A DNA stretch of 64,000 bases from Tepidanaerobacteraceae bacterium (GTDB lineage Bacteria; Bacillota; Thermosediminibacteria; Thermosediminibacterales; Tepidanaerobacteraceae), in NCBI GenBank assembly GCA_024655905.1, contig JANLFP010000006.1:62310-126309 (forward strand), read 5' to 3'. The notes under the pieces are model-generated. The model was not told where the DNA came from, ran no database searches, and saw only the letters and a list, made by a program, of their open reading frames with translations. Numbering within the stretch: position 1 is the stretch's first letter; every line of letters begins with the position of its first letter. Positions 39,815-56,561 of this stretch are shown one piece after another. Both the position numbers and the translations under genes were made by a program.

Positions 39815-40234
39815 CTACAGTCTGCCCAGAATCATGATGGAAACTATGAGACCGTATATGGCGATGCCTTCGGCCAGGCCCACAAAAATCAGGGTCTTGC
39901 CGAGGATGTTCGGGTCTTCAGACACGGCGCCCAGGGCCGATGAACCCACAGCGCCCACCGCATATCCGGCCCCAACCGTGGCAAGGCCCGTGGCAAGGGC
40001 TGCCGCAATAAATCCCATACCGGAGGAAGGATTTGTGGAAGAAGCCGCGCTGGCGATTCCCGGCACCACGAAAAACAGGAAAGCCGCTACCAGCAATGCA
40101 TATAAGGACACGCTGAGTCTCGCCATTCTCTTAAGTCTTTTCGCCTTTTTTCCATCCTTCGCAAGATAGATATAGAACCCGCAAGCCACGGTCAATCCCG
40201 ATATGGCCATGGCAATAAACAATACTGTATACAT
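39815..40234 (-). CDS. atpK: V-type ATP synthase subunit K (c-ring proteolipid)
   Basis: About 139 residues with four hydrophobic helices. Helices 3-4 carry the paired glycine-rich hairpin (GMGFIAAALATGLATVGAGYAVG; AVGSSALGAVSEDPNILGKTLIFVGLAEGIAIYGLIVSIMI), in which the Glu of GLAEGIAIYG is the ion-binding carboxylate. The N-terminal helical pair lacks an obvious carboxylate, so the ring would have one ion site per four-helix unit. The Gln/Ser environment before it should be checked to decide Na+ or H+. Start is the ATG at 40234 after ATGGAGGTAATCAGC. Confidence 0.95.
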   Translation of the reverse strand: MYTVLFIAMAISGLTVACGFYIYLAKDGKKAKRLKRMARLSVSLYALLVAAFLFFVVPGIASAASSTNPSSGMGFIAAALATGLATVGAGYAVGAVGSSALGAVSEDPNILGKTLIFVGLAEGIAIYGLIVSIMILGRL

Positions 40235-44110: not shown

Positions 44111-44506
44111 TTATGCTATTTTTTTCATCCCTCTGGTGTTTTCAGCGGCATTTTTCACATCCTGAAGGCCCTTTCCGAAGCTGGCTTCCATAGCGGCGGC
44201 TATAGCTCCCTCGATAAAAGGGGCATCGGCAATGGCCGCCCTAGATCTCGCAGGTTCTTCCAGGGATTCTATGGCGACTTCGGTGCTCATGATGGAGCTG
44301 CCCAAGTCTACTATAACTATCACTCCATCGCCAGTATCCGCTTTTCTTATCTTTTCTCCGATCAGCACCGGATCGGTGCCCAGGCGGTTGTCGCAGGTTC
44401 CGGCTGCAGTTTCTATCAAGACTTTTTCCCCGGTCATCTGCTTTATCAATTCCAGCGTGCCTTCAGCAATCTTCGGGGCATGGGATACCAGGACGATTCC
44501 TACCAT
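44111..44506 (-). CDS. dhaM: PTS-dependent dihydroxyacetone kinase, phosphotransferase subunit DhaM
   Basis: 131 residues of the EIIA-mannose fold. His9 in GIVLVSHAPKIAEG is the phosphorylation site, and GDGVIVIVDLGSSIMSTEVAIE is the conserved second half of the site. This is the short single-domain form, lacking the HPr and EI-like parts found in E. coli DhaM, so it must take phosphate from a separate HPr. It rephosphorylates ADP on DhaL. Third gene of dhaK-dhaL-dhaM. Confidence 0.96.
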   Translation of the reverse strand: MVGIVLVSHAPKIAEGTLELIKQMTGEKVLIETAAGTCDNRLGTDPVLIGEKIRKADTGDGVIVIVDLGSSIMSTEVAIESLEEPARSRAAIADAPFIEGAIAAAMEASFGKGLQDVKNAAENTRGMKKIA

Positions 44507-44527: not shown

Positions 44528-45175
44528 TTATAATCCGTTAACGGACATCTCTTTTATCTTTTCGATAGCCGCCTGCAGCATCAAATAGCACGAGGTGGCT
44601 CCCGGGTCCTGATGCCCTATGCTCCTTTCTCCCAGGTAGCTGGCCCTGCCCTTTTTTGCAATTATGCTTCGGGTATACTCCACTCCCTCTTTCGCGGCAT
44701 TCAGCGCCTTTTCCATAACAAGGCCCTTATCACCCGAATCTTTTTCATCTTTCAGGATATCTACGGCTGGTTCCAGCGAGTCGACGATGGTCTTTTCCCC
44801 CCGCTGAGCTTTCCCGCGGTATTTTATACCTTCCAGAGCCTGTTCCAGTATTGTAACAAAATCTTGAAAATCCAGGCTAGACTTTCCCGCCACTGCCTGG
44901 CCAGCTTTCATAAAGGCGGTGCCATAAAGCGGTCCCGACGCTCCGCCCACGGTCGACACCAACGTCATGCCGACGGTTTTCAAAATCGCTCCGCAATCAT
45001 CGATTTTCTGGGAATGAAGTTTTTCCACCACCGCAGAAAATCCCTTGGACATGTTTATGCCGTGGTCCGCATCCCCTATGGCCGAATCCAGTTCGGTCAG
45101 GAACTCTCGGTTTTCGCTGATTTTTTCCGCCACTTTTTCAAGTATTTTCACCAGACCCGCTGCGTCCGTTGCCAT
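44528..45175 (-). CDS. dhaL: Dihydroxyacetone kinase, ADP-binding subunit DhaL
   Basis: 215 residues from the ATG at 45175 (GAAAGGAGACCTGTCAA upstream); the longer open frame to 45286 has no support. The Mg-ADP site is made by Asp30, Asp35 and Asp37 (LDSAIGDADHGINM), with TVGGASGPLYGTAF and the SYLGERSIGHQDPGATS loop at the C-terminus. DhaL carries ADP as a fixed cofactor and passes phosphate from DhaM to dihydroxyacetone bound on DhaK. The 117-bp gap to dhaK is long for this operon and contains a small GACGG/CCGTC dyad. Confidence 0.96.
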   Translation of the reverse strand: MATDAAGLVKILEKVAEKISENREFLTELDSAIGDADHGINMSKGFSAVVEKLHSQKIDDCGAILKTVGMTLVSTVGGASGPLYGTAFMKAGQAVAGKSSLDFQDFVTILEQALEGIKYRGKAQRGEKTIVDSLEPAVDILKDEKDSGDKGLVMEKALNAAKEGVEYTRSIIAKKGRASYLGERSIGHQDPGATSCYLMLQAAIEKIKEMSVNGL

Positions 45176-45292
45176 TTGACAGGTCTCCTTTCGCAATAGT
45201 CGTGTGTAGCGCAAAGCTCTTTTGTTATTGCGACGGCCTTTCGCGCGACCGTCACAAACCCGCGCGCATTTTGCACCGTAATGCAATCGGCT

Positions 45293-46291
45293 CTAAAATT
45301 GTCTGAAAGCGGGTGTATCCGCCGGTGCATCCAGCAGTTTTTTCAATTCCTCGTCCAGCTTGAGCAGAGTTATCGAAGCGCCCGCCATTTCCAGCGAAGT
45401 CATGAATTCGCCGATGTATGTCCTGTGAACTTTTATGTCATGCTCTTTCAATATCTTGCTCACTTTATTGTACATTATGAATTGTTCCATGATGGGGGTG
45501 GCTCCAAGGCCGTTTATCATGACAGCCACTTCGTCTCCGGGTTTGAACGGAATGTCTGTCAGTATTTTTGACATCAGATGCTCCACTATTTCGTCGGCCT
45601 TCATGATTTTCGTCCGCATGGTGCCCGGTTCGCCGTGGATTCCCATGCCTATTTCCATTTCGTCTTCACCCAGAGTAAAGGTGGGCTTCCCCGCAGCGGG
45701 CACAACGCACGGAGTCAGGGCCATTCCCATGCTTCTCACATTGGCTATGACCTTTTCAGCTACGGCTTTAACTTCATCCAGGGTGCCCCCGGCCTGGGCC
45801 TTTGCTCCGGCAATTTTGTGCACGAAGACCGTGCCCGCTATGCCCCTCCTGCCGGTGGTGTAAGTGCTGTTTTCCACCGCCACGTCGTCGTTTACCACGA
45901 CTTTGGCCACTTTGATGCCTTCCATCTCCGCCATTTCGCCGGCCATTTCAAAGTTCATCACATCGCCGGTGTAGTTTTTAATTATGAGCAGCACTCCGGC
46001 ACCGCCGTCCACCGCTTTTACAGCCTCGAATATCTGGTCCGGAGTGGGAGAAGTGAATACGGCTCCGGCAACGCCGGCATCCAGCATGCCCCTGCCCACG
46101 AAACCGGCATGAGAAGGCTCATGGCCGCTGCCGCCTCCGGACACAAGGCCCACCTTGCCTTTTACCGGCGCATCGGCTCTCACGATGACGTTAAAGCCTT
46201 CCAGCTTCCTCACATATCCCGGAAAAGCCGCCACCATCCCCTCAAGCATTTCTTCCACCACATGTTCGGGGTTGTTGATGAGTTTTTTCAT
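45293..46291 (-). CDS. dhaK: Dihydroxyacetone kinase, substrate-binding subunit DhaK
   Basis: 332 residues. Residues VGLVSGGGSGHEPSHAGFVG (near 50) and GVLLIIKNYTGDVMNFEMA form the substrate pocket; His219 in EIGMGIHGEPG is the residue that binds dihydroxyacetone covalently as a hemiaminal. Complete at both ends with an AAAGGAGGGC ribosome binding site. It is transcribed from a probable sigma-54 promoter at 46343-46360. Product is dihydroxyacetone phosphate for glycolysis. Confidence 0.97.
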   Translation of the reverse strand: MKKLINNPEHVVEEMLEGMVAAFPGYVRKLEGFNVIVRADAPVKGKVGLVSGGGSGHEPSHAGFVGRGMLDAGVAGAVFTSPTPDQIFEAVKAVDGGAGVLLIIKNYTGDVMNFEMAGEMAEMEGIKVAKVVVNDDVAVENSTYTTGRRGIAGTVFVHKIAGAKAQAGGTLDEVKAVAEKVIANVRSMGMALTPCVVPAAGKPTFTLGEDEMEIGMGIHGEPGTMRTKIMKADEIVEHLMSKILTDIPFKPGDEVAVMINGLGATPIMEQFIMYNKVSKILKEHDIKVHRTYIGEFMTSLEMAGASITLLKLDEELKKLLDAPADTPAFRQF

Positions 46292-46342: not shown

Positions 46343-46360
46343 TAGCAAGAATTGTGCCAA
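46343..46360 (-). promoter_or_regulatory. Sigma-54 (RpoN) promoter upstream of dhaKLM
   Basis: On the minus strand TTGGCACAATTCTTGCT has the -24 GG and -12 GC elements exactly 10 nt apart, close to the consensus TTGGCACNNNNNTTGCW. It lies 52-69 bp before the dhaK start and just after the terminator hairpin at 46365-46390. A sigma-54 activator gene (48154-49875) lies 2 kb upstream. Confidence 0.85.
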
Positions 46361-46364
46361 TTAA

Positions 46365-46390
46365 AAAAAGGGCATTATTATGCCCTTTTT
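46365..46390. terminator. Terminator between the receptor gene and dhaK
   Basis: AAAAAGGGCA at 46365-46374 pairs with TGCCCTTTTT at 46381-46390 around a 6-nt loop, with T-runs on both strands. It ends the upstream glp/regulator operon before the dhaKLM promoter. Confidence 0.85.
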
Positions 46391-46413: not shown

Positions 46414-48132
46414 TCAACCCGCATCCTTGGCGACGGCTCTGATTATGTCATAATTCTCATCGGAAGCCTCAATAAATCCGTTTATGATAGTGCTGCCTTG
46501 CTCCGTCCGGACTTTGCCGCCCCTGTAAGCCATGAAACCTCTCTTTAGGTTTTCCACTACGCTTTTTTCAAGTCCCGGCCTGGCAGCTATGCAGTCTTTC
46601 GGGATCGGGTCGGTTTTTGCAAGATATACTAGTTTTTCCACCGCAAGCCCCCGCTTTTTTGCGTCGTCAAGGGCTTCGGAATAAGTGGCGCCCGCATCCA
46701 CTGTCCCCTGCAGCACCGCTTCCACCACTCTGCTGTGGGTGCCCAGAAAGATTTTTTCCGCAAGGTCTCTATCCGGATCGATCCCCGCCTTTTTTAAAAG
46801 CATCCTCGGATAAGCGTACCCCGAAGCCGACTTTGGGTCTACGAAGGCCATTTTTTTCCCTTTCAATCCTTTTATATCGGTAATACCGGAACCGGGCCCC
46901 GTTACTATATAGCCCATGTAACTGGCAGCTCCGTTTACCACCGGCGTCGCAATGGGAGTTATATCGGCTTTATATCTAGCGTTGACGTACGCCAGGGGAG
47001 AAAACCAGCCCACATCCACTATCCCTTCTATTAGACAATCGGCCAGAGCGTTGTAATCCGCTGCAATCATCACCCTGAAGTTGAATCCTGACGTTTCCCC
47101 CACTGCGTTGATGGCCGGCAGGTACATGGCTTTTATTACATCAGGGCTTAAAGCGGGATTTATTCCTATAATAAATTCATCCTTTTTCTTGAACTTCAAC
47201 GTGGTTTTCTGAAGGGAGTACACATTTTTCACGAGTTTTTCCGCAATGTCCAGAAGCATCCCGTTGTTTTTTTCCTGTTCTTTTATCAATTCCGCTACCC
47301 TGCGTGTGGACTCCGACGTAGCGGCAGTCTCCATGGCAAGAGAAGAAAAAATCTCGCTCAGGGAACCCATCGTTTTTGCCTGGCGGGATATTGATTCGAA
47401 CAATTTTTCATATACGGCGGCAATTTCTTCCAATACTTTCACCGATTCATCCATGACGTTCCCGCTGAGCTGAGTCTTTTCTCTGACACCTTTCAATCTG
47501 GCGGTGCTTTCTCGGGAGATGGAGTGCGCCCGGCTTATGCCTTCGTTGATTATGCCTGCAGTCTCTTGAATCTCGTGGGCTCTTGTACTGCTCAATTCCG
47601 CCAGCTTCCTTATCTCCGACGCCACCACGCCGAAGCCCCTGCCGACCTCTCCCGCTCTAGCCGCCTCGATTGTCGCGTTTATGGCCAGAAGGTGCGTCTG
47701 TCGGGCTATGCTCCTCACAAAAGTAACAAATCCCGCCACCTTATCGGTAAGCTCAAGGAGGCCGGCCACATCATTCGAAGATTTATCCATTTCTTCAGAG
47801 ACCCTGTCAACCAGGTTCTGAACTTCCGAAATAGCAAGGCTTCCCTCCCTTATTTTCACAAGGCTTTCTCTGGACTTGTTCAATACCTCGAGGGCACTCT
47901 CCTTCAGTCCCGAAGAAAATTTGGAAAGCTCCTCCAGGTCCGATGTGCCTGCAGTTAAACTATTACTGTTTTTCTGGGAATTTGCATTTATACCTTCTAT
48001 TATTTCTACCAATTTTCTGGATTTTTCGGAATTCCTGTCAACTATCCAGTTTATCTCATGGGCATCATAACCTAATTTTTCACTAAGAGGCAGAATGTCG
48101 TCAATCCCCGATAACTCCAAATCGACCGGCAT
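46414..48132 (-). CDS. Soluble chemoreceptor signalling domain fused to a PhnD-type solute-binding domain
   Basis: 572 residues without a signal peptide or membrane helix. Residues about 60-310 are a methyl-accepting chemotaxis signalling coiled coil with the conserved hairpin tip ([40 protein letters not shown]). Residues about 318-560 are a PhnD/phosphonate-type binding protein ([74 protein letters not shown]). Normally the second module is an exported ABC binding protein. It is the last gene of the glycerol-3-phosphate dehydrogenase operon and 22 bp after a sigma-54 activator gene. A cytoplasmic phospho-metabolite sensor is an inference. Confidence 0.88.
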
Positions 48133-48153: not shown

Positions 48154-49875
48154 TTACACCAAAAGGCCGTACTTTCTGGCTTTGGCCGCCACCGTCTTAT
48201 GAGTGAGCCCCAGGGCTTTTCCGGCGGCGTTGAAACTTTTATACTTTTTCAGGGCAAATTTAATTATTTCCTTTTCATATTCCTCAAAAGGAGCTATCTC
48301 TCCGTCAGCGTCAGGATTGACCAGGAATTGTTTGTCTTCTATACTGATGCCCGTCACGTACGTCGGAAGATCATCTACGTCTATTACGTTATCGTCGGTG
48401 AGATTTATGGCCCGCTCTATAACGTTCTCAAGCTCCCTGACATTTCCCGGCCAGTCGTAACCCAGCAAATATTTCATGGCCCGGCGGGTTATGGCCGTAA
48501 CGTCCTTTTCCAGCTCACAGCTCAACTTGTTTAAAAAATGCTCGGCCAGGTCCGGTATGTCTTCTTTTCTTTCTCTCAGCGGCGGAAGCACAATCGGCAC
48601 CACGTTCAGCCTGTAGTAAAGGTCCTCCCGGAATGCTCCGCTTTTGACCATTTCTTCCAGGTTTCTGTTGGTGGCGGCTATGACCCTTACATCCACTTTT
48701 ATCGTCTGGTTGCCCCCGACTCTCTCGAATTCTCTTTCCTGCAGTATCCTCAGAAGCTTTGCCTGCATTTCCACGTTCATTTCTCCGATTTCATCAAGAA
48801 AAACGGTGCCGCCGTTGGCCAGTTCAAATCTCCCCAGCTTTTGATAGATGGCTCCCGTAAATGAACCCTTCTCATGGCCGAAGAGTTCGCTTTCCAAAAG
48901 AGGCGAAGGTATGGCGGGGCAGTTCACCCGAACAAAAGGTTTATCCTTCCTTCGGCTGGCATAATGTATGGCTCTCGCAATGAGTTCCTTTCCCGTGCCG
49001 CTTTCCCCGCGGATCAAAACTGTGGAATGGGTCTCGGCAGCCTTGGATGCGATGGCCAGCGCATCCTGCAGCCGCCCGCTTCTGCCCACTATGGGCTCAA
49101 AAGCACTGTCAAGCTTCTGGGTCCGTTTTAATTCCTCTTCAAGGTACTCGGCTTTTGCCACCGCTTCATTTATCAAATCGATCCTGTCTTTTAATTCTTT
49201 AAATTCATCCAGTTTGTCTATAAGCCTTTCAATCTGAAGGATATCCTGAAATACTATAACGGCTCCGAGTATTTCATTGTTGATGATTATCGGAGTGATA
49301 TCGGTGACCACTGCGGATTTCCCTATGACCTTTTTGCTGCCCAGCTCGTCCCTTCCATCCCGCAGTATGTTTTCCATTTTTATTCCGGGAATGATATTTT
49401 CTATTTTTTCACCGATTACCTCATGGCTCTTGAATCCGGTAATCTCTTCAGCCGCACGGTTGAACATCGTAATGCAGCCCTTTTTATTTACCACTATAAG
49501 GCCGTCGGCAATACTCTGAAAGATTGTGTCCGAAGTTAAAGCATTTTCCTCCAGGATGTTATCCATTTTTTCAATCTCTTCACTGTTTTTTGGCGAAAAA
49601 TCGCTCTGCAGCAGCCTGTCGAAGCAATCTACGGCTTCAACCACCTTGTTGCCCTTTGCCACAATCGTTACTTTTTCTCCGAATTTTAAATTCAGCGAAT
49701 GGAGGGCCATGAGAGCGGTAGCAGGAACTTCCCTCCCGTACCGGTTGCGTATATATACATTGGTGCCCCAGTTGTGTTCAATCTCATGCGCTTTCTGAAC
49801 CATCATGGCCGCCGCTCTTATGTGCAGACCTTTCGGATGACAGAATACCACTTCTTTTTGAAGCAAGTTCCTCAC
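48154..49875 (-). CDS. Sigma-54-dependent activator with N-terminal HPr-like and PAS domains
   Basis: 573 residues, four domains. Residues 1-90 resemble HPr: [20 protein letters not shown] keeps the phosphorylatable His (His18) and the Arg; the Ser46 region reads [12 protein letters not shown], with Ala where HPr has the regulatory Ser. A PAS domain follows ([20 protein letters not shown]) to about 230. The AAA+ domain has Walker A GESGTGKE, the sigma-54 loop GSFTGA (GAFTGA variant) and [12 protein letters not shown] Fis-type helix-turn-helix ends it ([20 protein letters not shown]). It plays the part of DhaR and probably activates dhaKLM. It follows the DUF1667 gene by 27 bp. Confidence 0.93.
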
Positions 49876-49902: not shown

Positions 49903-50265
49903 TCAGGACCAGTTTCTCGAGGCTATTACGTCCACTCCCGTACCCGCCACATCTTTTAAAACTATATCACCCATATTCACAGGCGCGGCAACTGATACAT
50001 TTTTAAGCTCCTGCATGGCTTCTTTCAGCTTAGATTTGGGAATCGGAGCCCGTGTACGGACAGGCAGAACATGAGCAGCCTCCGCCTTCAATCTGACCGT
50101 TGTGGTCAGAATCCTCTTCGGCGACGTCACTTCGTCTTTGGCATATTGAAGGCCCCGCCTGCAGCGATAACCGCTCAGGTTCAGTATATTTCCATTTTCA
50201 ATCTCCACCTCTATTCGGCATCCCACGGGACATATTATGCATGTCACATTTCTCTTATCACTCAT
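49903..50265 (-). CDS. DUF1667 protein, small subunit of the glycerol-3-phosphate oxidising cluster
   Basis: 120 residues from the ATG at 50265 (GAAGGTGCTTCCG upstream). It matches DUF1667: VTCIICPVGCRIEVEIENG with a CxxCxxxC cluster, GYRCRRGLQYAKDEVTSPKRILTTTVRL with a further Cys, and the C-terminal NVSVAAPVNMGDIVLKDVAGTGVDVIASR. The Cys set could bind an Fe-S centre. Genes of this family accompany the two flavoproteins upstream in many anaerobes, probably as an electron-transfer subunit. It overlaps the upstream gene by 8 bp. Confidence 0.9.
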   Translation of the reverse strand: MSDKRNVTCIICPVGCRIEVEIENGNILNLSGYRCRRGLQYAKDEVTSPKRILTTTVRLKAEAAHVLPVRTRAPIPKSKLKEAMQELKNVSVAAPVNMGDIVLKDVAGTGVDVIASRNWS

Positions 50266-51529
50266 CGGAAGCACCTTCTTCCTGAAGGATAAATTTCAGA
50301 TGGCCCGCCGCTTTGGATATTTCCGATTTGCCAAGTTCAATATTTATCATTTCGCTGGGCTTTACATATGAAAGCATCTTCGTTTTTATAGTGCCGTTTT
50401 CGGATTCAATGGCAAGTTTTGCTTTTTTCATGGGTCTCGTGCTTCTCATGAAAAAGTTCTGTTTTTCATCGAGCATTTTTTCTACGCCAACAGCGTGCGG
50501 AAGCACATATCTCAGGCCTTCGCCCGCGATGACGGACATCTGCCGGTAAGCCCCATCTTTTTCTTTCAGGTACCGGGCGGCTCCCCGGGCCGCAAGTTTT
50601 GCTTCCATCGTCACAAAGTCCACTAAATCATGAACGTGCAGCACATTGCCGCAGGCAAAAATTCCCTCGCAGGAGGTTTCCATCCATTGATTCACCATCG
50701 GCCCCTGGGTGTTTGCATCAAAATCGGCACCGGTCATTTTTGTTAATTCATTTTCGGGTATCAAGCCCACCGATAGCAGCAGAGTGTCGCAGGGTATGAA
50801 TTCCGCAGTCGACAGGATCGGTTTCAGGTTTTCATCAACCTTCGCTACGGTGACTCCTTCCACTCTTTTTTTGCCATGAATCTCTATTACTGTATGGCTC
50901 AGCCTGAGGGGTATTCCATAATCCTCCAAACACTGCACCACATTTCTGGTCAGGCCGTTGGAATAGGGCATTATTTCAAGGACGCATTTTACTCTGGCTC
51001 CTTCCAGCGTAAACCTTCTAGCCATGATGAGACCAATGTCTCCCGAACCTAAAATTACTATCTCTTTCCCGGGCATGTAACCTTCAATGTTCACATATCT
51101 CTGGGCCGTCCCGGCGGTAAAGATACCCGCCGGCCTGAATCCGGGGATGTTCAGGGCCCCCCGGGTGCGCTCCCGGCATCCCATGGCCAGGATCACGGCT
51201 TTTGCCTGAATCTCCAGAACGCCTTTTTTGCTGTTTACGGCAAATATTCTTTTGTCCTGCGTGATTTCAATCACCATGGTGTCCAGTAAAACTTCAATTC
51301 CCGTGTTTTCCAGCCTATCGATGAATCTCTGGGCATATTCCGGCCCTGTCAGTTCTTCTTTGAATACGTGCAGCCCGAAACCGTTGTGTATGCACTGCTG
51401 CAGGATACCCCCCAGACCCGAATCCCTTTCGACTATCATAACATCCTTTACGCCCTGTTCAGCGGCCTCCAGAGCCGCGGCAAGCCCCGCAGGACCTCCT
51501 CCGATTATTACCAAATCCTTATAAAGCAT
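50258..51529 (-). CDS. NAD(FAD)-dependent oxidoreductase of the glycerol-3-phosphate dehydrogenase cluster
   Basis: About 423 residues with an FAD-binding start (LVIIGGGPAGLAAALEAAEQG), GILQQCIHNGFGL, a second nucleotide-binding motif (EIVILGSGDIGLIMARRFTLEGA) and GIFACGNVLHVHDLVDFVT, which matches the subgroup sold in annotations as sarcosine-oxidase-alpha- or GlpB-like flavoproteins. It likely passes electrons from the GlpA-like subunit to NAD or an Fe-S carrier. I prefer the ATG at 51529; the frame is open to 51562. It overlaps the end of the GlpA-like gene. Confidence 0.88.
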   Translation of the reverse strand: MLYKDLVIIGGGPAGLAAALEAAEQGVKDVMIVERDSGLGGILQQCIHNGFGLHVFKEELTGPEYAQRFIDRLENTGIEVLLDTMVIEITQDKRIFAVNSKKGVLEIQAKAVILAMGCRERTRGALNIPGFRPAGIFTAGTAQRYVNIEGYMPGKEIVILGSGDIGLIMARRFTLEGARVKCVLEIMPYSNGLTRNVVQCLEDYGIPLRLSHTVIEIHGKKRVEGVTVAKVDENLKPILSTAEFIPCDTLLLSVGLIPENELTKMTGADFDANTQGPMVNQWMETSCEGIFACGNVLHVHDLVDFVTMEAKLAARGAARYLKEKDGAYRQMSVIAGEGLRYVLPHAVGVEKMLDEKQNFFMRSTRPMKKAKLAIESENGTIKTKMLSYVKPSEMINIELGKSEISKAAGHLKFILQEEGASDE

Positions 51530-53039
51530 CTGCCGCACCGCCTTTCCAGCTAAGGCTTTCAACTTCTACAGTGTTTAAATATTCATCCATGTCCTTTTCT
51601 GCAATAAATTCTTTATAGCCGCCTTTTAAAATCTCCGAACCCGGGCCGCACTTGGTCACCTGCCGCGGATCTATCTTAAGCTCCCTCGCCAGGATAGACA
51701 GCACCCTGGATGAGCAGAAGCCTCCCTGACACCTTCCCATGCCGGCTCTGGTCCGCCGCTTGATTCCATCCAGACTTTTCGCCCCCAGCGGCCTTCTTAT
51801 GGCATCGACTATTTCCGCTTCCGTCACGGTTTCACAGCGGCATATCACATGACCGAAGGCGGGGTTTTCTTCTATCAGCTTCTGCCGCGTCAAATTGTCC
51901 ATTTCCCGGAAGCGATACTTTCTGGGTCGTGTGGGTACAAAATTCTGTTTTTCTCTTAAATCCATACCTTCTTCCTTCAAAATTTCGACGACGGTTTCGG
52001 CTATGGCCGGAGCCGAAGTGAAGCCGGGTGACTGTATCCCGCCCACATTGACAAAGCCCTTTACCTTTCTGGACGCTTCGATAATAAAGTCGTTGGTATT
52101 GGAAACGGCCCGAAGCCCCGCAAAAGAAGTTATCACTCCCGACAGAGGCAGCTCTGGGACAAGCTTTCTTCCCCCCTCGATAATCTCTTCGATGCCTTCC
52201 CGGGTGACGCTCACGTCGGTTTTGTCCTTGATGTCGTTGGAATTGGGGCCTATGAAAATATTTCCGTCCACCGTGGGGCATACCAGAATGCCCTTGGATA
52301 TCTCCGAAGGGGTGGGGAATATGACTTTCTTTATAAGGTAGCCGAATTTTTTATCAAATATGAGATATTCTCCTTTTCGGGGTGTAACAGTATATTCTTC
52401 CGCCCCCGCCATTTTTGAAATTTCATCCGAGAACAGGCCCGCTGCATTTATTATATACCGTGCCTTCACAAATTCATAGGGGGTATTTACAATAAAGGCG
52501 CCGTCTTCCACCACAATCTTGATCACGGGAGAATTGAATCTGAATTCCACGCCGTTTATAGCGGCGTTTTCGGCCAGTGCTATAGTAAATTCGTAGGGAC
52601 ATACTATTCCCGCCGTAGGGGCATAAAGCGCCGCTTTTGACATGGGATTCAGGTGGGGCTCCATTTTCATCAACTCGTCGTGCCCTATGATCTCAAGACC
52701 AGGAACGCCATTTACCCTGCCCTGATTCAATAATTTCTCAAGAATCTTGATTTCTCCTTCTTCAACAGCCACCACCAGCGAACCGTTGTTTATATACGGT
52801 ACATCCAGCTCTTCGCATATTCCTGGGAATAAGACATTTCCCCTCACATTCATCTTAGCCTTCCAGGTGCCCGGCTTGGCGTCGAAACCCGCATGGATGA
52901 CCGCACTGTTGGCCTTGCTGGTACCGCAGGCTACATCCTCCTCTTTTTCCAGCAGTATAACCTTTATATCATACCTTGACAGCTCTCTTGCTATCATGCA
53001 GCCCGTCACGCCGCCGCCTATAATTGCCGCATCATACAT
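51519..53039 (-). CDS. glpA: Glycerol-3-phosphate dehydrogenase (GlpA-like) with BFD-type 2Fe-2S domain
   Basis: 506 residues. The N-terminal DAO-type FAD domain (YDAAIIGGGVTGCMIARELS, GTSKANSAVIHAGFDAKPGT) oxidises glycerol 3-phosphate to dihydroxyacetone phosphate. From about residue 405 a BFD-like domain follows (CRCETVTEAEIVDAIRRPLG, then MGRCQGGFCSSRVLSILA), giving a CxC...CxxxxC set for a 2Fe-2S cluster. First gene of the five-gene operon that also holds the second flavoprotein, DUF1667, the sigma-54 activator and the receptor fusion. A hairpin at 53063-53089 lies in its leader. Confidence 0.92.
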   Translation of the reverse strand: MYDAAIIGGGVTGCMIARELSRYDIKVILLEKEEDVACGTSKANSAVIHAGFDAKPGTWKAKMNVRGNVLFPGICEELDVPYINNGSLVVAVEEGEIKILEKLLNQGRVNGVPGLEIIGHDELMKMEPHLNPMSKAALYAPTAGIVCPYEFTIALAENAAINGVEFRFNSPVIKIVVEDGAFIVNTPYEFVKARYIINAAGLFSDEISKMAGAEEYTVTPRKGEYLIFDKKFGYLIKKVIFPTPSEISKGILVCPTVDGNIFIGPNSNDIKDKTDVSVTREGIEEIIEGGRKLVPELPLSGVITSFAGLRAVSNTNDFIIEASRKVKGFVNVGGIQSPGFTSAPAIAETVVEILKEEGMDLREKQNFVPTRPRKYRFREMDNLTRQKLIEENPAFGHVICRCETVTEAEIVDAIRRPLGAKSLDGIKRRTRAGMGRCQGGFCSSRVLSILARELKIDPRQVTKCGPGSEILKGGYKEFIAEKDMDEYLNTVEVESLSWKGGAADAL

Positions 53040-53132: not shown

Positions 53133-54653
<1,521 letters not shown>

Positions 54654-54718: not shown

Positions 54719-55528
54719 TTAAGACCTCATGGATTTGTCGGCCTTAAGGTTCTCCTCCATCTTCTTCGGCAGGAATGGCGAAACGAGGTAGTCGTAAGCA
54801 TAAGCGCCGAGCGGACCGCCGATCAATGGACCAACTATTGGTACCAGCAGCCAGTAGCTGCCAGAGAATGCTCCCTGATCGCCAATCATAGCCGCAAACA
54901 ACCTGGGTCCGAAGTCACGGGCCGGGTTTATTGCATATCCGGTAGGTCCACCCAGGGAAAGACCCAGAGCATATATCGCGCAGCCGACTACCAGAGGCCA
55001 TAGATTGCCAGCGGGGCCCAAGTTGTATACATTATCAACTATAGCGTATATGAAAAGCACAAGGAAAAAAGTACCTGCAATTTCAACAAGCATACTGTTT
55101 CCGATACTGTATGCTTCATTTGCCGCACCGGTGTAAAAAATGTTCATGTATCCATCTTTAATGAAGTTCCCAAGGTAAATCTTGTGGATGATGAAAGCTC
55201 CAACAAAAGCCCCCAGTACCTGGGCAATCCAGTACCCTATGGCTTTGCCGAAACTCATCCCGCGGCGCAGAACTGCCGCCAGAGTAACTGCTGGGTTCAA
55301 ATGAGCGCCGGTTATCCCGCCTGCCACATAAACCGCCATTGTAACTGCAAGAGCCCAGCCGACGTTTATAGTATTCCAGTCATAACCTGCGCCGTTCTTG
55401 AAAATGCCGAAACCGTTAAGTCGCGGAGCAAAAATGACGTTTGCCACAACACCGCATCCGAAAATGATAAGGATTACAGTCCCGAAGAACTCAGCCCAGA
55501 GTTCCTGCATCAAAGTGTCCCTTTTCAT
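54719..55528 (-). CDS. glpF: Glycerol uptake facilitator (aquaglyceroporin)
   Basis: 269 residues of the MIP family: six membrane helices and the two pore motifs GAHLNPAVTLAAVL and YAINPARDFGPRL, with the second in the GlpF form (NPARDFGPR). An Asp after the NPAR motif and extra length between helices 3 and 4 agree with glycerol rather than water transport. A GGGG-rich ribosome binding site lies before the ATG. First gene of glpF-glpK, downstream of glpP and of a leader terminator. Confidence 0.96.
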   Translation of the reverse strand: MKRDTLMQELWAEFFGTVILIIFGCGVVANVIFAPRLNGFGIFKNGAGYDWNTINVGWALAVTMAVYVAGGITGAHLNPAVTLAAVLRRGMSFGKAIGYWIAQVLGAFVGAFIIHKIYLGNFIKDGYMNIFYTGAANEAYSIGNSMLVEIAGTFFLVLFIYAIVDNVYNLGPAGNLWPLVVGCAIYALGLSLGGPTGYAINPARDFGPRLFAAMIGDQGAFSGSYWLLVPIVGPLIGGPLGAYAYDYLVSPFLPKKMEENLKADKSMRS

Positions 55529-55740: not shown

Positions 55741-56325
55741 TTATCTCCAAGTCCTCGTGTGGATTTCATCCCACAACTCCTCTTTGCTGACCGATACCGC
55801 CAACGCCCCTTCCCTCAGCGCCGCCTTTACCTCATCCATGTTTTCGATTAGGCCGCCCGCTATCACCGGATAATGCACTTCCCTATGGATCTTGTTAATT
55901 ATCTTGGGTATGACGCCGGGCAGTATCTCTACAGCATCAGGATCCACCTGGTTTATGGATTTTTCGGCGGTATCTTTTGCCAGACTATCGAGGATGAACA
56001 CTCTTTGAATTGTAAATATCCCTTCGCTTTTGGCACAGCTTATAAGATTTCCCCTGGTAGTAATAATTCCGTCCGGTTTGACTTCCTCAGCTATATATTT
56101 AATTCCCATACCATCCTTGCTAATCCCCTCGAGGAGGTCAAGATGGACGAAAGCGCGCTTTCCGGCTTTTTTAATGTGTGTAACCGCATATTTAATATTG
56201 AGAATAGTGCCCGTAAGAAGAAAGAGGCAGCGAAGGGGCTTATCTAAAGCCACATCCACCTTTTCTATATCCCTTATGGCAGCTATGATGGGATATTTTT
56301 TTATGTCGGATAAAACATCCCCCAA
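55741..56325 (-). CDS. glpP: Glycerol-3-phosphate responsive antiterminator
   Basis: 194 residues with a TIM-barrel-like GlpP fold: PIIAAIRDIEKVDVALDKP, AFVHLDLLEGISKDGMGIKYIAE, ITTRGNLISCAKSEGIFTIQ, RVFILDSLAKDTAEKSI, DAVEILPGVIPKII and PVIAGGLIENMDEV, each a family block. It binds glycerol 3-phosphate and leader mRNA. Located directly upstream of glpF on the same strand, in the same order as in Bacillus. Confidence 0.96.
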   Translation of the reverse strand: MGDVLSDIKKYPIIAAIRDIEKVDVALDKPLRCLFLLTGTILNIKYAVTHIKKAGKRAFVHLDLLEGISKDGMGIKYIAEEVKPDGIITTRGNLISCAKSEGIFTIQRVFILDSLAKDTAEKSINQVDPDAVEILPGVIPKIINKIHREVHYPVIAGGLIENMDEVKAALREGALAVSVSKEELWDEIHTRTWR

Positions 56326-56561
56326 ACGATCACCTTCCGCTATAAATAAACATCAAATTTTGAATCTGATATATTTTATATAATGAATGCGTAATTGAAT
56401 ATTTCTTAAATTTTTATATTGCAAGAAACATGCCATGACTCGAAGCCTGAATTTATTATAATTTTTTATGCTTACCTGGTAATTTATATCAATTAAAATA
56501 AATTTGACATGATTTTATTGATATATTTTACCCATCATCATGCAATATGCTCAAACAGGAA

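Follow-up and report, generated by a model that had tools for sequence, protein, structure and literature searches.

Metabolism-dependent taxis, the coupling of swimming to metabolism, is an old question, and few receptors are known that sense metabolism directly. In the 64,000-nucleotide stretch of Tepidanaerobacteraceae DNA analysed here (the window), one reading frame joins a chemoreceptor signalling hairpin to a PhnD-type binding domain, which raises the question of what such a protein senses, on which side of the membrane it does so, and where its signal goes. Taken as a complete chain, the reading towards which we lean slightly is that of a cytoplasmic chemoreceptor for metabolism-dependent taxis, with a phosphorylated C3 metabolite as ligand, either glycerol 3-phosphate (G3P) or dihydroxyacetone phosphate (DHAP), and CheA as the recipient of the signal. 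The proposal draws on an intact signalling tip, a phosphoryl pocket, the lack of a membrane crossing, and a glycerol/dihydroxyacetone gene cluster with sigma-54-type promoters (Table 1).

Table 1. Features of the fusion gene and its surroundings (window coordinates; residues are those of the fusion protein).
Feature	Coordinates	Strand	Evidence
MCP-PhnD fusion gene, 572 aa	46414..48132	-	ORF and Pfam/NCBIfam matches; full length kept in all 26 sequences compared
Chemoreceptor signalling coiled-coil hairpin, residues 10-314	47191..48105	-	Pfam MCPsignal; 2ch7 alignment; AF2 model
Hairpin tip, residues 142-178, expected CheA/CheW contact region	47599..47709	-	Conservation in 26 fusions
PhnD-type sensor domain (type II periplasmic-binding-protein fold), residues 316-572	46417..47187	-	PF12974; structure-model matches; pocket mapping
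GlpP, glycerol-3-phosphate-responsive antiterminator	55741..56325	-	PF04309 6.7e-66
Glycerol facilitator GlpF (MIP family)	54719..55528	-	MIP 3.6e-51
Glycerol kinase GlpK	53133..54626	-	TIGR01311 780 bits, over cut-off
Type-2 glycerol-3-phosphate oxidase/dehydrogenase with Fer2_BFD	51519..53039	-	DAO 1.3e-71; NCBIfam type 2 G3P oxidase 3e-102, below its cut-off
FAD/NAD(P) oxidoreductase, glycerol-3-phosphate oxidation set	50258..51562	-	Pyr_redox_2 4.6e-37
DUF1667 protein, glycerol-3-phosphate oxidation set	49903..50274	-	PF07892 4e-33
Sigma-54 activator (HPr-like, PAS, AAA+, HTH), directly upstream of the fusion	48154..49875	-	PTS-HPr 3e-14, PAS, Sigma54_activat 2e-74, HTH_50
DhaK, dihydroxyacetone kinase subunit	45293..46291	-	TIGR02363 518.8 bits, over cut-off
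DhaL, dihydroxyacetone kinase subunit; probably begins at a more internal start	44528..45286	-	TIGR02365 257.7 bits
DhaM, phosphoryl donor subunit, EIIA domain only	44111..44506	-	TIGR02364 131.8 bits
Predicted sigma-54 promoter ahead of the glpP-glpF-glpK... unit, TGGCATGTTTCTTGCA	56420..56435	-	Pattern match
Predicted intrinsic terminator, end of the fusion's unit	46363..46390	-	11-bp stem AAAAAGGGCAT/ATGCCCTTTTT, then T run
Predicted sigma-54 (-24/-12) promoter of dhaKLM, TGGCACAATTCTTGCT	46344..46359	-	Pattern match, between fusion and dhaK

The open reading frame is real and matches the description in the earlier note; it starts with ATG and contains its stop codon within the tabulated coordinates. 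MCPsignal (PF00015) matches residues 102-263 (E = 4.5e-26, 92.2 bits against a curated cut-off of 34.6), Phosphonate-bd (PF12974) matches residues 322-561 over the whole profile (1-242 of 242, E = 4.4e-63, 213 bits), and the NCBIfam model TIGR01098 matches above its cut-off. Pfam, NCBIfam and the structure model agree with the order noted earlier, with the signalling part first and the PhnD-type domain at the C-terminus. The first homologue search recovered the same architecture at 37-91% identity in 13 other genomes, in one frame throughout except for the G005 copy described below, and the fusion is therefore not an assembly artefact. An assembly fusion is also ruled out on the wider scale, as the identical architecture occurs in one clade in 21 of 398 genomes sampled evenly across the phylum, at identities down to 32%. 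Compared with the 91% relative, the gene has a dN/dS of about 0.15 (0.13 for the MCP part and 0.19 for the PhnD part). No Rfam family was found between positions 40000 and 60000 of the window.

Within the class, 14 of the 26 genomes carry the fusion, and the phylum sampled also includes Megasphaera. Altogether 27 members were considered, namely the 26 in the alignment and a frameshifted one in a single-contig genome (G005; L011/L040). The frame of the latter breaks near residue 525 and loses the last ~45 residues, by sequencing error or recent decay. In other phyla, searches run without a positive control gave no match at E <= 1e-40 among 198 and 247 genomes from the phyla of a Treponema MAG and a Geobacter MAG. 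In a tree of PhnD domains, a single branch (support 89/83, 90% of bootstrap trees) sets all 26 fusions apart, and one fusion event is the simplest reading of the sequences. A Nitrospirae match that seemed to span both domains (L071) turned out to be a normal exported PhnD protein, and a Phaeobacter PhnD-like gene considered as a bridge to GpxB was dropped, being nearer to PtxB. A Thermodesulfovibrio MAG (G412, contig C47, 4788-6347; L055) contains a 599-aa frame with two successive PhnD-like domains.

The signalling hairpin is of the chemoreceptor type. The family profile aligns with the Thermotoga receptor 2ch7 from position 14 to position 305 with zero indels (HMMER), and from its length the hairpin would belong to the 44-heptad class, with ~22 heptads per arm. 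In the AF2 model, a monomer built from a shallow alignment (pTM 0.57), residues ~10-314 form a single continuous helix; the structure-model matches span residues 316-572 only, and the helical part was assessed from sequence. The tip motif NAxIEAARAGxxGRGFxVVAxE is invariant or nearly so across the 26 fusions, with N152, I155-R159, G164, G166, F167 and E173 strictly invariant, and the tip sequence is common to eight other MCPs of the host genome. At the base of the hairpin, where the PhnD domain is attached, E18 is nearly invariant and W29 invariant in all 26 fusions; judging from length, both would face residues ~290-307 across the hairpin. Q286 and L307 are also conserved at this base. The host genome has 14 MCPsignal matches and encodes two CheA proteins (H-kinase_dim) and the flagellar protein FliG, so that a chemotaxis pathway is available to the fusion. 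Both cheA genes are on contigs other than that of the window (C32 and C11 against C34), and the remark in the earlier note that no che genes are nearby thus holds for CheA, the component for which it was checked. Among the 14 fusion-carrying genomes of the class, CheA is found in 13, the exception being a MAG that is 89% complete, and FliG in all 14. We consider it very likely that the fusion acts in the CheA/CheW pathway as a cytoplasmic receptor.

The proposed cytoplasmic location was borne out by hydropathy prediction. The best 19-residue Kyte-Doolittle mean of the protein is 1.34, with no hydrophobic stretch, and neither a signal peptide nor a transmembrane segment was found in the window protein or its 10 closest relatives; for the window protein, export was ruled out on these grounds. 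A transmembrane segment between the signalling and PhnD domains was likewise absent from all 26 relatives compared. Eleven distant members bear hydrophobic segments at the extreme N-terminus (two in L104, L105, L107-L110 and L114; one in L103 and L111-L113), followed by the same hairpin and PhnD domain, and these anchors leave no space for an external domain. The family has thus shifted between soluble and N-terminally membrane-anchored forms, with the sensor cytosolic throughout. As the tip must reach CheA in the cytosol and no transmembrane segment follows it, the PhnD domain, on the predicted topology, must be cytosolic across the whole family. The premise that in known receptors the ligand domain lies outside the membrane was overstated, since cytoplasmic receptors such as TlpD are a recognised class (PMC13001251).

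The sensor domain has the fold of the PhnD-type binding proteins. Its model matches ArrX (Z 27.4), PtxB (Z 26.9), GpxB (Z 24.9) and E. coli PhnD (Z 24.5), and the pocket comprises Y360, Y405, S435-A436-S437, H466, E486 and D513. In the alignment, Y47, Y93, S127, T128, S129 and H157 of E. coli PhnD, from a pocket whose residue roles are described in PMC5700983 and PMC12718374, correspond to Y360, Y405, S435, A436, S437 and H466. These phosphoryl-binding residues are invariant in 26/26 fusions, save position 436 (A or T), and from this conservation a phosphoryl head on the ligand is strongly indicated. At the tail end of the pocket, E177 and D205 of PhnD correspond to E486 (25/26, once D) and D513 (26/26), positions that are variable in the free PhnD proteins of the comparison set. 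The E177/D205 pair of E. coli PhnD holds the amino group of 2-aminoethylphosphonate (PMC5700983). The PhnD relative GpxB binds G1P and G3P at 1-2.5 uM (G3P at ~1 uM) and contacts the glycerol tail through R223/T247 (PMC12718374). The latter pair is absent from the fusion, where E486/D513 stand instead, an equivalence taken from PMC12718374 by way of E. coli PhnD E177/D205. The two carboxylates could bind either an amino group, by analogy with PhnD, or the hydroxyls of G3P/DHAP. An internal phosphate ester, as the earlier note suggested, is still the likeliest ligand given the intact phosphoryl pocket, but the tail pair is that of E. coli PhnD rather than that of GpxB. The glycerol and triose-phosphate operons around the gene speak for a C3 phosphate, which we regard as the probable ligand, with reasonable though limited confidence.

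The gene cluster reads glpP, glpF, glpK, type-2 G3P oxidase, FAD oxidoreductase, DUF1667, sigma-54 activator, fusion, dhaK, dhaL, dhaM. Membership of a glycerol/G3P operon, claimed before, is upheld; the fusion begins 21 bp after the activator gene, which itself follows the DUF1667 gene of the G3P oxidation set. The sigma-54 promoter pattern TGGCAY-N5-TTGCW has two matches in the 64 kb, against 0.2 expected; the site upstream of dhaK is also present in L039, L040, L043 and L072, and that upstream of glpP in eight relatives. The terminator hairpin behind the fusion (-20 kcal/mol, z -5.4), together with the -24/-12 promoter that follows, makes dhaKLM probably a separate transcription unit. From these predicted signals, a sigma-54-driven glp unit probably ends with the fusion, and dhaKLM would form a second unit within that regulon. 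The suggestion of co-transcription with glycerol genes is thus retained, as a prediction, for the glp side but not for dhaKLM. The activator carries an HPr-like domain with a GLH motif, while DhaM here consists of an EIIA domain only, and on this domain content the activator could be part of a phosphoryl chain that senses DhaKLM activity. In one relative (L049, G012), the aligned activator begins at residue 90, and the HPr domain may be missing.

The association with glycerol recurs among relatives in several arrangements, as searching other genomes for the fusion and its neighbours revealed, with glycerol/triose-phosphate genes adjoining the fusion in 18 of the 27 members. In the closest clade, made up of 11 relatives and the window, the activator gene and dhaK of the glp-dha cluster flank the fusion (12/12). 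Further away, it stands between DUF1667 and dhaKLM without the activator (L111 and L113, 34-35% identity), in the order glpP, fusion, glpF, glpK, glpABC (L103, 45%), next to glpP (L114, 37%), or last after glpBC-pyk-gap-pgk-tpi-eno (L101/L102, 48%). In L101 and L102 the fusion ends a lower-glycolysis run rather than a glycerol operon, and an aldehyde dehydrogenase gene follows. L101 glpB and pyk were assigned by reading the sequence, the other neighbours by Pfam or by similarity to the window genes. Of the remaining nine, eight distant members have nothing of the kind beside the fusion, and the ninth (L108) lies at a contig end. Judging from gene content, DHAP and G3P are the metabolites common to the arrangements.

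At the genome level, dhaK is present in 18 of 21 carriers, compared with 73 of 398 genomes overall (Fisher 7e-12, shared ancestry ignored). Where dhaK is not adjacent to the fusion, 10 of 13 carriers still possess it (Fisher 1.7e-6, shared ancestry again ignored), and 10 of the 12 carrier families include a carrier with dhaK. One relative has a second dhaK-dhaL pair directly after dhaM (L042, 9026-10684), and the host genome has an additional divergent dhaK on contig C35. In a Tepidanaerobacteraceae MAG (L072, 9900-10450), only decayed N- and C-terminal remnants of the fusion are left between an intact activator and dhaK. The receptor is thus dispensable for the pathway, a loss to be expected of a sensor rather than of an enzyme or obligate regulator, and neutral to mildly favourable for our proposal.

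We postulate the following course of events. Use of glycerol (GlpF, GlpK) or of dihydroxyacetone (DhaKLM) would enlarge the pool of glycerol 3-phosphate or dihydroxyacetone phosphate, and the PhnD clamshell would close on the phosphorylated C3 intermediate. Closure could alter how the two arms of the hairpin are spaced or packed at the base, within a dimer, and this change would travel along the coiled coil to the tip, altering CheA activity through CheW as in other receptors. The altered CheA activity may then bias swimming towards places of ongoing glycerol metabolism.

Other readings have to be weighed against this proposal. The same receptor might bind a different phosphorus ligand, such as inorganic phosphate, phosphite, a phosphonate (for example 2-aminoethylphosphonate), an aminated phosphate ester like phosphoethanolamine or phosphoserine, or a nucleotide, which we think unlikely. 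In its favour, the pocket matches E. coli PhnD including the E177/D205 pair (PMC5700983), and the PhnD-fold protein XAC2383 was solved with ATP; however, the carboxylates could equally take hydrogen bonds from glycerol hydroxyls, and the neighbours are glycerol/triose-phosphate genes, with no phn or pst genes. A phosphite sensor is disfavoured, as the cap tyrosine of phosphite binders (Te_PtxB Y208) is replaced by D513 in 26/26 fusions. A search for the C-P lyase PhnJ, in which E. coli served as positive control, found it in only one of the 27 carriers and not in the host genome; this weighs against a phosphonate ligand and led us to reject a C-P lyase-linked phosphonate sensor. The sole C-P lyase carrier (G016; L050, 8430-10205) is without dhaK and glycerol neighbours, and its fusion has Asp for Glu at the PhnD E177 position, perhaps reflecting a changed ligand.

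Less likely still, the protein would have no part in swimming, and its coiled coil would be a scaffold that senses the phosphorylated intermediate and regulates the operon, for example via the HPr-PAS-AAA+ activator or the DhaKLM phosphoryl chain. The constant place of the gene in the closest clade suits such a role, and receptor-like regulators of gene expression exist, Tls of E. coli being one (PMC12623472). Such a role fits poorly with a fully conserved tip motif that the host genome's other MCPs share. Moreover, in L101-L103, L111 and L113 the fusion is near glycerol genes without the activator beside it, and L072 retains the activator and both operon halves without the receptor. PhnD-type domains are normally periplasmic or lipoprotein-anchored, and a sensor outside the cell, on an exported protein with a misread N-terminus or in an inverted topology, would keep to this usual site. 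We find that reading barely credible, given the lack of a signal peptide or transmembrane segment described above and the anchored homologues, whose membrane segments all precede a hairpin that must face CheA. The free PhnD proteins of the phylum, by comparison, do bear N-terminal export or lipoprotein signals (judged by eye), and they branch separately from the fusions.

A cytoplasmic chemoreceptor of CheA thus remains the preferred reading, and known systems show which part of it may be new. On the broader view, that an ancient chemoreceptor family gauges an internal phosphorylated C3 metabolite by a cytosolic clamshell, so that taxis follows glycerol/dihydroxyacetone catabolic flux, our judgement is evenly poised. 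If true, the family would be the first among chemoreceptors to keep a sensor of the binding-protein type in the cytosol, and also the first to sense a phosphorylated metabolite inside the cell. This view suggests that the clostridia-like carriers steer by the rate at which they burn glycerol, not by tasting glycerol outside. With a soluble receptor whose pocket residues can be named and whose gene sits in the operon producing its likely ligand, the question of metabolism-dependent taxis would also become directly testable. In the literature searched, we found no cytosolic PhnD-type sensor of a chemoreceptor; PF12974 and PF00015, or MCP and Phosphonate-bd, were never named together there, and a mention elsewhere is possible. 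Within that literature, cytoplasmic receptors are already known, and the PhnD-type cytosolic sensor is the new part.

TlpD of Helicobacter pylori and McpA of Salmonella are, like the fusion, soluble receptors without transmembrane segments, in which a hairpin precedes a C-terminal sensor and the output is CheW/CheA (PMC13001251). The TlpD sensor is a small zinc-binding helical CZB domain, in contrast to the sensor found here, a two-lobed binding-protein fold of 257 residues that carries a phosphoryl site, and unlike TlpD, the fusion gene belongs to a catabolic operon. MtpA, the methylotaxis receptor of Methylobacterium aquaticum, is likewise cytosolic and mediates taxis dependent on an intracellular metabolic product, but it lacks a recognisable sensor domain, and no ligand of it is known (PMC10613068). 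PacP and the sCache_PC3 receptors, reported as the first chemoreceptors with demonstrated binding of phosphorylated compounds, respond to the phosphorylated C3 compounds G3P/DHAP (PMC12395807); PacP differs in its periplasmic sCache domain, which has an unrelated fold, lies between two transmembrane segments and senses external G3P. The fusion's sensor shares its fold and phosphoryl-binding residues with PhnD, PtxB, GpxB and ArrX (PF12974). Those proteins work outside the cytoplasm as partners of ABC transporters or kinases, whereas the domain described here is cytosolic and covalently joined to the signalling part of a receptor. The traits of a PhnD-type ABC-transporter binding protein are absent, with no permease or ATPase genes alongside. 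A domain known from outside the cell, as a partner of transporters, would thus have been re-employed as an internal metabolite gauge.
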